From Polaromonas sp. YR568 (GTDB lineage: Bacteria; Pseudomonadota; Gammaproteobacteria; Burkholderiales; Burkholderiaceae_C): a stretch of 37,380 bases of DNA. The DNA lies in NCBI GenBank assembly GCA_945860515.1, contig CAMARI010000006.1, positions 1 through 37,380 on the forward strand. Reading direction: 5' to 3'. The notes under the pieces were generated by a model, which made no database searches, was not told where the DNA came from, and saw only the letters and a program-made list of their open reading frames with translations. Positions 1,085 through 4,570 of the stretch are shown piece by piece (position 1 is the stretch's first letter; every line of letters starts with the position of its first letter). The translations under genes and the position numbers were made by a program.

Positions 1085-1957
1085 TCAAGCGGTAACGGTG
1101 TTGCCCATTTGTGCACGGCCTTGCGCCTCATGCGACGGGGCCCAGTGCAGCAATTCCAGCGTGCCATCAAAGTGTTCAACCAACGCGGTTCGGCTTTCCA
1201 CCCAGTCGCCATCGTTGCAATACAGCACACCGTCTATATCGCGCATCTCGGCGCGGTGGATATGTCCGCACACCACGCCCTGGTGACCGCGCCGGCGCGC
1301 CTCGTTGGCCACCGCCACTTCGAAACTAGTCACGTAGTTAAGTGCGGTTTTGACCCTTTGCTTCAGGTACGCCGACAGTGACCAATACGGCAAGCCCAGG
1401 CGGGTGCGCAAGCTGTTCAGGTAGCGATTCAACTTGAGCGTGAATCCATAGAGATTGTCCCCCACAATGGCCAGCCACTTGGCGCATTGCACCACAGCAT
1501 CAAAGTAGTCGCCGTGAATGACCCACAACTGACGCCCATCTGCAGTGGTGTGTACCGCCTCTTCCATCACCTCGATATCGCCAAAACGCAGGCCGATAAA
1601 TTCACGTGCAAACTCATCATGATTACCCGGAATGAACACCACCCGGCAGCCCTTGCGTGCACGCTTGAGCAGCTTTTGAACCACGTCGTTGTGGGCCTGT
1701 GGCCAATACCATTTGCGACGCAATTGCCAGCCATCAATGATGTCGCCGACCAGGTACAGGTTGTCGCTGGGGTGGGCTTTTAAAAAATCCAGCAGCTCGT
1801 TGGCCTGGCAGCCAGGCGTGCCCAAGTGCAGGTCAGAGATAAAAACCGTGCGATAACGTTTGCGCAGCGAATCATCGTCGTGGTCGTGCGGCTCCTGGGC
1901 ATCTTTATCTTTGGCACTGCCCATGGAACCCAAAGCGTCAAACATCGTACGCATCAC
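1085..1957 (-). CDS. Calcineurin-like metallophosphoesterase, PlcP/LpxH2-like
   Basis: RYRTVFISDLHLGTPGCQANELLDFL...YLVGDIIDGW...WPQAHNDVVQKLL...FIPGNHDEF...VIHGDYFD...GVVCGHIHRAEMRDIDGVLYCNDGDWVES: metallophosphoesterase metal-ligand motifs. Start overlaps the stop of the upstream gene (ATGA). Confidence 0.88.
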   Translation of the reverse strand: MMRTMFDALGSMGSAKDKDAQEPHDHDDDSLRKRYRTVFISDLHLGTPGCQANELLDFLKAHPSDNLYLVGDIIDGWQLRRKWYWPQAHNDVVQKLLKRARKGCRVVFIPGNHDEFAREFIGLRFGDIEVMEEAVHTTADGRQLWVIHGDYFDAVVQCAKWLAIVGDNLYGFTLKLNRYLNSLRTRLGLPYWSLSAYLKQRVKTALNYVTSFEVAVANEARRRGHQGVVCGHIHRAEMRDIDGVLYCNDGDWVESRTALVEHFDGTLELLHWAPSHEAQGRAQMGNTVTA

Positions 1958-2826
1958 ACAACCACAGGTTTGCGGGAAGGTTGCGCCGTGAAGTGCTTCA
2001 GATAGCGCGGCGGCAGATCGGCAATGCGCATCATCATCGGCAGGTCGGCAGAATTAAAGTCAGGGTCCCAGGCCGGAGCGCCGAGCACCTTGGCACCCAA
2101 GCGCAAGTAGCCGCGAATCAGCGCGGGCGGCTCAATGTTCAGTGAGTCGTCGAGCTTGTCGACCGGCAGCGCCAGGCGCGGCGTAACGTGATAGTCAATC
2201 GGTGCCAAATGCGTCTGCTTGACTTGCCGCCAGATGCTGGCCGCCGCCTGGCCGCTGTTCGCGCCAGGAGTTTGCATCGGGATGCTGGCGCAGCCAATCA
2301 TGGTGTCTAGCTGGTTGCGCGCCATAAATTCAGCCAGCGCACCCCACAACGCCAAGATGACGCCCCCCGAGCGGTGGTCTGCATGCACGCAGCTGCGGCC
2401 CAGCTCAACCATCCGCTCACGCAGGCTGCGCAAGCGCGTCAGGTCAAACTCGGTGTCGCTGTAGGTGCTGCCCGCACGCTTGGCCTGGGTAGGCGTCAAG
2501 ACGCGGTAGGTGCCAATCACATTCCCACTGGCCTCGTCACGCACCAGAAGGTGCTCGCAGTAGTCGTCAAACAAATCAATATCATGGCCGGGCACAGTCA
2601 CGGGTAATGTGGCCCCCATTTCAACTGCAAAAATCTGGTATCTCAGGCGCTGCGCCGCCCGGACCTCGTCTTGATGCCGGGCCCAGCTGACCGAGATTTT
2701 GCCCACGGCAGGCCTTTGAACAACATCGGAAACGACAGTTTGACCGCTTGGACAAAGTGACCCCCGCATAACTTGCGGCATCGCCACGGGGGACAGGGCA
2801 AAGGTGGGGTTGGGCAGTTCTTTCAT
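1954..2826 (-). CDS. OlsB-like GNAT N-acyltransferase (lyso-ornithine lipid synthesis type)
   Basis: EVRAAQRLRYQIFAVEMGA...DLFDDYCEHLLVRDEASGNVIGTYRVL...FDLTRL...MVELGRSCVHADHRSGGVILALWGALAEFM; good SD (AAGGAG) before ATG 2826. Confidence 0.82.
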   Translation of the reverse strand: MKELPNPTFALSPVAMPQVMRGSLCPSGQTVVSDVVQRPAVGKISVSWARHQDEVRAAQRLRYQIFAVEMGATLPVTVPGHDIDLFDDYCEHLLVRDEASGNVIGTYRVLTPTQAKRAGSTYSDTEFDLTRLRSLRERMVELGRSCVHADHRSGGVILALWGALAEFMARNQLDTMIGCASIPMQTPGANSGQAAASIWRQVKQTHLAPIDYHVTPRLALPVDKLDDSLNIEPPALIRGYLRLGAKVLGAPAWDPDFNSADLPMMMRIADLPPRYLKHFTAQPSRKPVVV

Positions 2827-2877
2827 CGCGGGCTCCTTGGGTTTATCGCTGTCGGTTCAATGTTCAAAATTTGCCGT

Positions 2878-2900
2878 AAAAAAGCCCCGAGGTCGGGGCT
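2878..2900 (-). terminator. Rho-independent terminator-like hairpin
   Basis: Minus strand AGCCCCGA-CC-TCGGGGCT followed directly by TTTTTT. Confidence 0.75.
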
Positions 2901-2912
2901 GCTGGTGGGAGG

Positions 2913-3095
2913 TCATTTGCCAACGCTCGGGAGCATGGGGCGAATGCTTTGAAGTCCCTCCAGCCAGGGTCGCGCTCCCGGCTGGAAGCGCAAGCCACCC
3001 GGGCTGCTGGCCAATGCCATGGCGGTGCAGCGCAAAATGCGCAGGCACTGCTGGTTGAAATTCAGACTTGGTATGGCTTGTTCGACTTTTTGCAT
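2913..3095 (-). CDS. Putative 60-aa small protein between PHO-box array and terminator
   Basis: MQKVEQAIPSLNFNQQCLRILRCTAMALASSPGGLRFQPGARPWLEGLQSIRPMLPSVGK; GC-biased third positions; stop lies ~12 bp before the terminator hairpin; weak SD. Confidence 0.35.
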   Translation of the reverse strand: MQKVEQAIPSLNFNQQCLRILRCTAMALASSPGGLRFQPGARPWLEGLQSIRPMLPSVGK

Positions 3096-3117
3096 GCCTG
3101 TATTTTGAAAGTACGGG

Positions 3118-3157
3118 GTGACGTGCTTGTGTCAGTTAAGTGGCAGTTACGTGACAG
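3118..3157 (-). promoter_or_regulatory. PHO-box-like array (PhoB binding), four 7-bp units at exact 11-bp spacing
   Basis: Minus strand reads CTGTCAC-GTAA-CTGCCAC-TTAA-CTGACAC-AAGC-ACGTCAC; units on + strand begin at 3151, 3140, 3129 and 3118. Matches the PhoB consensus CTGTCAY with 4-nt AT-rich spacers. Confidence 0.8.
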
Positions 3158-3252
3158 GACAGGGTCGCGATGCACTCGGCTTGCCCGCATGGATTTGCCG
3201 TGAATGCGCTGCGTCCCCTGCAAGCCAGCCGCCGCTCTGGCAACATCCTCGC

Positions 3253-4179
3253 ATGCCTAAATTGACCCAAGACAGCTGCCCCACCCTGACCGCCAATCTG
3301 ACAGTCTTGTACGACGGCGCCTGCCCCCTGTGCCGCCGCGAAATCGCTGTTTACCAAGACCTTCAGCCGGTCGATGCTGGCCAGACACTGACGTTTTCAG
3401 ACATCAGCCGGGCTGACTCAGCACTGCCACTTGGCGGCGTGCGCAGCGACTATCTGGCGCGCTTTCATGTGCAGCTGGGTGATGGTCAGGTGCTCAGTGG
3501 CGCGGCGGCTTTTGTGGCGCTGTGGGCTACGCTGCCAGGCTGGCGCTACCTGGCGTTTGCGGCCCGCCTGCCTGGCGCCACCCCTCTTCTGGAGGTGGTG
3601 TATCGCGCGTTTTTGCGTATCAGGCCGCAAATGCAGGGCATCGCCAAGGCTTTTGAAGCGCCTCGCGTTTCAAAAGCGCTGGCAGGCGACTTGCGGTCAG
3701 ACCAGGCCGGAGAAACCGGTGCGGTTTGGATCTACCGTGGCCTGCTGGCTGTCTCAGGCAACGCAGGGGTGCGCGAATTTGCCCAGCGCCATTTGAAAAC
3801 CGAGCAAGTCCACCTGGACAACATCAACGCCGTTTTGCCGTGGCCCCAGCGCAGCCGCCTGCTGCCCGGCTGGCGCGTGGCTGGCTTTGCCACCGGTGCC
3901 CTGCCCGCCCTGTTTGGCCCCCGCGCCGTGTATGCCACCATTGCAGCGGTTGAAACCTTTGTTGACCAGCACTACCAGCACCAGATCGACAAGCTGCAAA
4001 ATCAGCCGGAGCACGCCGAACTGCTCAAACTGCTGCGGGAATGCCAGCAAGACGAATGCGAACACCGCGACGAAGCCTTGGCGCTGCAAGCCCAGCCGCC
4101 CGGCAGGCTGCTGCGCGCCTGGTGCAAGCTGGTCGGAAGCGGGTCCAGTGCGGCAGTGGCGCTGGCGCGGCGTATCTAG
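3253..4179 (+). CDS. DCC-family thiol-disulfide oxidoreductase fused to COQ7-like (demethoxyubiquinone hydroxylase) di-iron domain
   Basis: N-terminal LTVLYDGACPLCRREIAVYQ (DCC/DUF393); C-terminal AGETGAVWIYRGLLAV...KTEQVHLDNI...GFATGALPALFGPRAVYATIAAVETFVDQHYQHQI...CQQDECEHRDEAL (COQ7 E / ExxH ligands). Start chosen at ATG 3253 (MPKLTQ). Confidence 0.82.
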   Translation: MPKLTQDSCPTLTANLTVLYDGACPLCRREIAVYQDLQPVDAGQTLTFSDISRADSALPLGGVRSDYLARFHVQLGDGQVLSGAAAFVALWATLPGWRYLAFAARLPGATPLLEVVYRAFLRIRPQMQGIAKAFEAPRVSKALAGDLRSDQAGETGAVWIYRGLLAVSGNAGVREFAQRHLKTEQVHLDNINAVLPWPQRSRLLPGWRVAGFATGALPALFGPRAVYATIAAVETFVDQHYQHQIDKLQNQPEHAELLKLLRECQQDECEHRDEALALQAQPPGRLLRAWCKLVGSGSSAAVALARRI

Positions 4180-4186
4180 TCTTTCG

Positions 4187-4250
4187 GAATGCTATTTCTT
4201 TAATAGCTGGTTACCTCGGTATTTATTGGCCTAAAGCCACTTTTTGCACC
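4187..4250 (+). repeat. Dispersed ~60-bp repeat, copy C
   Basis: AATGCTATTTCTTTAATAGCTGGTTACCTCGGTATTTATTGGCCTAAAGCCACTTTTT. Confidence 0.7.
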
Positions 4251-4337
4251 TGGAAATGGCAGTTTTTGACCTTTAAAAGCTGTCGCAAGACGGTATTTGC
4301 CCCGCTGGAAGCCCTGTGAAGCTATTTTTGACTTGTT

Positions 4338-4412
4338 TTCAGGCATCTTTTAGACCTCCGGACCTATGAAAACTTGGGTGAAAAGCTTCTGAATTCATAG
4401 CAGCTTGAAGTT
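4338..4412 (-). repeat. Dispersed ~60-bp repeat, copy H
   Basis: Minus strand CTGCTATGAATTCAGAAGCTTTTCACCCAAGTTTTCATAGGTCCGGAGGTCTAAAAGATGCC. Confidence 0.65.
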
Positions 4413-4570
4413 CATTGGAGTCTGACTCCGATTGTTAAATGCCCTCCACAAACCCGGGATGATTCACCGATCCTAGGCATCGAAAACTTCCTGCAAATCT
4501 AGTTTTCTGGCGCCCCGTGCATTGATCATGGAACGCAATCTTGCTATCTCACCCAGGGACATCCGGATGA

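Follow-up and report, generated by a model that had tools for sequence, protein, structure and literature searches.

A Pho-regulon small-protein gene of probable phoX origin between a PHO box and olsB-type lipid genes in Polaromonas

Organization of the locus

The window (the whole stretch of 37,380 nucleotides that was analysed) carries on its minus strand, in this order, a tandem PHO box, a -10 element, an open reading frame (ORF) of 60 amino acids, a hairpin followed by six T residues (T6), and the genes olsB, plcP and a glycosyltransferase (GT) gene. The sequence-only reading of this DNA had placed the 60-aa ORF at 2913-3095 and the hairpin with T6 between the PHO box and olsB, and these coordinates were found to be correct.

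The PHO box (3118-3157, minus strand) consists of four 11-nt repeats (CTGTCAC gtaa CTGCCAC ttaa CTGACAC aagc ACGTCAC), a layout that recurs in nearly all relatives. The -10 element CAAAAT (3102-3107, minus strand) lies 10 nt past the last repeat, and CANAAT is found at an equal distance from the PHO box in most relatives; a PHO box about 10 nt ahead of a -10 element corresponds to the Pho-regulon layout. The 56-nt promoter pattern matched a single site in the genome to which the window belongs, and its backward control contained no match. Transcription is predicted to start at 3095, the A of the small-ORF ATG, which would give a transcript of about 218 nt from +1 to the end of the T-run. A leaderless start was ruled out as a family-wide trait, since most family members carry a GGAG together with an ATG located some 45 nt downstream of the PHO box. 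Within the five-genome subclade of the window (L016 and L066-L069) this usual start has been lost, and the one start codon that all five share, an ATG, coincides with the predicted +1; a leaderless mRNA is accordingly predicted for the small ORF there. On the other strand, the divergent neighbour (3254-4179, plus strand) combines a COQ7 domain with a DCC1-like thiol-disulfide domain in a single frame.

The olsB leader (2827-2877, minus strand) contains the Shine-Dalgarno sequence AAGGAG at 2833-2838 and precedes a gene for an ornithine N-acyltransferase of the GNAT type (1954-2826, minus strand; PF13444, 6e-35). The top NCBIfam models for its product were those of OlsB, with 158 and 151 bits against equivalog cut-offs of 350 and 320 that were not reached, and the gene is therefore referred to as OlsB-like. 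It is followed on the same strand by a calcineurin-like phosphoesterase gene, LpxH/PlcP-like (1085-1957; PF12850 and PF00149), which the LpxH models scored below their cut-off, and by an Agt-like GT4 glycosyltransferase gene (1-1059; PF00534 and PF13439) that is truncated by the contig end. These genes belong to the families of phosphate-starvation lipid remodelling (PlcP-Agt, OlsB) and, as in those systems, lie behind a PHO box; the literature searched differs in giving no account of a preceding small protein and terminator.

The intrinsic terminator (2878-2900, minus strand) is formed by a GCCCC-GACCTC-GGGGC hairpin (AGCCCCGACCTCGGGGCT, 2900-2883) and a T-run extending to 2878. No other terminator-like site is present in 2000-4500; taken alone this one is not beyond chance, because shuffled sequences yielded 3.1 such sites on average (z only -1.8), and its significance comes from its conservation in place across loci. 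Among the small-ORF loci with an olsB start within reach, a G+C-rich hairpin with a U-run is kept in place in 35 of 54, or 36 if L073 with its longer loop is counted, and the hairpin begins 7-20 nt past the small-ORF stop in every one of these terminator loci. In about a third of the loci the terminator is absent, and in most of these the small ORF is close to or overlaps olsB. For the separate olsB promoter that the sequence-only reading had considered as the opposing case, PHO and sigma-70 scores between terminator and olsB equalled those of shuffles (34 loci). With the terminator conserved and no second promoter above chance, transcriptional read-through is the simplest and likely route to olsB-plcP-GT, which suggests that in such bacteria expression of the lipid remodelling genes depends on polymerase reading past a terminator; a promoter of another type may lie ahead of olsB. 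G180 and G208 have more than 700 nt between small ORF and olsB. At these loci (L091 and L080, respectively) an apparent opposite-strand gene lies between the small-ORF terminator and olsB, and olsB therefore probably has a separate promoter in these two genomes.

Conservation of the small-protein gene

On comparative grounds, the 60-aa ORF (P0001; 2913-3095, minus strand, with its ATG at the predicted +1) is a genuine, strongly conserved gene. Of the 87 genomes that represent the genus, 66 gave homologs in a profile search, the two weakest of which (G185 and G197) are doubtful. These homologs share the Pho promoter and are in nearly every case located directly upstream of olsB. The genus is Polaromonas according to named matches, and the gene also occurs in some Rhodoferax and unclassified bacteria. 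An initial search of 151 family genomes gave convincing matches only in G100 and G126, both adjoining olsB, and a wider search of 401 family genomes gave no matches outside the genus other than G126 and a chance frame in G456. Plasmids and viral contigs that were searched for the small ORF gave no match. The sequence-only reading had raised a Pho-induced small protein and had named conservation of this segment as a check; these comparisons bear out the conservation and support a small protein encoded behind a Pho promoter.

The core consensus of the protein is LRILRCTAxAMASSPGGLRFKAGTRPWLEGL; the tails are variable among members, and the product length ranges from 60 aa in the window up to about 110 aa elsewhere (60-111). 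In four clades dN/dS was 0.05-0.14 in the frame of the ORF (0.07 in the clade of the window) versus 1.3-4.9 in the other two frames. The low values span an unbroken core of 38 codons, and synonymous sites differ by 44-56% within clades. Profile searches gave no Pfam, NCBIfam, PHROG or PDB family match for the small protein, an Rfam search of the region returned nothing of note, and no description of the protein was found in the literature or family libraries searched.

Two genomes hold small ORFs that are unlinked to olsB and have their own PHO box: G152 (L119, and L201 at G152:C1:1665238-1665453) and G200 (L122 and L203). Degenerate copies were found in G152 and G168; the degenerate copy of G152 is the olsB-linked one, which has lost core residues, and its unlinked copy is intact.

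Relation to phoX

Fourteen genomes of the genus without the small ORF all carry phoX in the same slot, followed by the same kind of terminator (present in 14/14 loci) and then by olsB. Searching with PF05787 recovered the linked phoX form, at 554-567 bits, from these 14 genomes and from no others; in no case did it occur together with the small ORF. Seven further genomes lack the small ORF. Most of them are incomplete, and G195 (L176) holds a degenerate copy. The gene for the olsB-linked PhoX alkaline phosphatase thus shares with the small ORF the slot, the promoter layout, a similar leader, the terminator and the downstream operon. The likeness of the promoters alone is no proof of descent from phoX because PHO boxes are alike across the family.

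The N block of the small protein (residues 1-29, core NFNQQCLRILRCTAMALA; 3009-3095, minus strand) is related to the N-terminus of PhoX. The small-protein profile matched PhoX residues 11-42 above all shuffles, and the N block alone scored up to 13.8 bits against PhoX of the genus (best shuffle 5.4) and 15.9 bits against PhoX from outside the genus (best shuffle 4.1). These profile comparisons show common ancestry of the two N-terminal segments.

For the C block (residues 30-48, SSPGGLRFQPGARPWLEGL; 2952-3008, minus strand) the likely source is the PhoX motif GSPDGLQFDAGGMLWIQ, which lies about 480 residues beyond the N-terminal match. The best ungapped PhoX position of the C block was the same, at this motif, in 581 of 610 pairs (95%), and 0-3 of 300 shuffles were as good per comparison, the comparisons not being independent. 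A profile of the C block standing alone fails to find the PhoX motif, and for this reason we regard the derivation of the block from the motif as probable rather than shown.

By the tests made on sequence, the small protein itself is outside PhoX. PhoX has about 650 aa, and the small protein lacks the catalytic domain; PF05787 gave no match in P0001 or in 39 relatives. Where PhoX carries RRHVLRC at its twin-arginine site, the small proteins have no twin-arginine pair; RR occupies this position in just two copies, the degenerate L168 and L169. With the catalytic part and the twin-arginine pair gone, export and phosphatase activity are not expected.

In the olsB tree most small-ORF genomes group together, next to the phoX ones, with the exceptions of G160 and a separate Rhodoferax group. 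To fit this tree, the slot must have switched between small ORF and phoX several times, and with the Rhodoferax group apart a single, vertically inherited deletion does not explain everything; some transfer, or change that recurred in the history of the slot, is likely.

Mode of action and alternative explanations

The structure model of the small protein is poor (mean pLDDT 66) and has only one confident helix, at residues 13-30. Several findings favour action in trans: the core stays conserved where the terminator is missing and in the unlinked copies of G152 and G200, and the linked copy of G152 has decayed in a genome that has an intact unlinked one. From its genomic place, we infer a role in the phosphate-starvation lipid response.

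Regulation in cis would take the form of a leader ORF whose translation, and not its product, sets the passage of RNA polymerase through the terminator into the lipid genes. As in leader-peptide attenuators, the short ORF lies directly ahead of a terminator and an operon, and a ribosome terminating at its stop, so close to the hairpin in every terminator locus, could disturb it. In the sister genome G234, a near relative of the window (L067, 1232-1504), the stop is even lost, and the frame crosses the hairpin and overlaps the olsB start codon. Against this, no regulatory codon run is seen, phoX has a comparable distance between its stop and the hairpin, and the amino-acid core is conserved in terminator-less loci (dN/dS 0.14) and in copies away from olsB, such that the ORF is not always in cis to operon and terminator as an attenuator would be. 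We consider this explanation unlikely. The attenuation or read-through raised by the sequence-only reading is upheld with respect to read-through; a purely cis-acting leader as the main function is not supported, given the terminator-less and unlinked copies and the decay of the linked copy in G152. A Pho-induced small RNA was also put forward there. On this view the RNA would end at the terminator and the ORF would be incidental, which would suit the short predicted transcript with its canonical terminator. Selection acts at the codon level with synonymous sites strongly diverged within clades, Rfam gave no match of note, and a small RNA as the main function appears the least credible of the explanations considered.

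Two further alternatives concern the origin of the gene. If it were a phoX pseudogene in decay whose product serves no purpose, the resemblance to the PhoX N-terminus, the variable tails and the degenerate copies in G152 and G168 would be accounted for, but the low dN/dS across the unbroken core in four clades and the intact promoter make this very improbable. A conserved small protein unrelated to phoX, its arrival and the loss of phoX being independent events, would agree with the weakness of the second block on its own and with the patchy olsB tree. Yet the N block finds its match in the corresponding position, with a similar leader ahead of it, in and outside the genus, the second block is collinear, and the small ORF excludes linked phoX; we find this reading as doubtful as the leader ORF.

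We therefore consider it rather probable that an internally deleted phoX has become a conserved, non-secreted small protein of the Pho regulon, with the lipid genes reached by read-through. The interval would then be a separate Pho-regulon gene. PhoB would bind the four-repeat PHO box, the transcript would begin at or beside the small-protein ATG, and the majority of transcripts would stop at the hairpin and T6 just past the stop codon. The remainder would be read into olsB, plcP and the glycosyltransferase gene, so that the small protein would be abundant and the lipid enzymes less so. The gene was most likely born when the phoX of the slot lost most of its frame, with the first approximately 40 codons retained, the twin-arginine pair lost, and the remnant probably fused to the later PhoX motif. 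The promoter, leader and terminator of phoX would have been retained with the remnant, which would be kept as a cytosolic one-helix small protein with a probable trans-acting part in the phosphate-starvation lipid response. A fuller version is in our view an evenly balanced proposition: internal deletion would have reduced the gene of a secreted phosphatase to one for a small cytosolic protein with a selected role in the phosphate-starvation lipid response, and this gene would have replaced the phosphatase in the Pho slot across most of the genus and become leaderless in some species.

The interpretation offered by the sequence-only reading is thus partly supported, and the analysis goes beyond it in showing that the protein family is conserved, that it alternates with phoX and that it probably arose from phoX. 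The Pho regulon gains an unnamed, well-conserved family of small proteins, new in that it would combine Pho control with an unusual origin. It would illustrate with unusual clarity how the 5' end of a larger gene can give rise to a small protein that selection maintains, the full-length form still occupying the same slot in sister species. Culturable carriers, e.g., Polaromonas sp. JS666 (L129), make the small protein testable.

Further observations concern the neighbourhood of these loci. An arsH-like gene, recognized by eye, is often found upstream of the Pho slot in the genus, in phoX and small-ORF genomes alike (L187, L196, L201, L202). At L198 (G160:C12), where the olsB of the small ORF groups with phoX-type genomes, a divergent phoX of another form lies alongside. 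The olsB-unlinked copies of G152 and G200 are near a quinone-oxidoreductase-like gene on the opposite strand.
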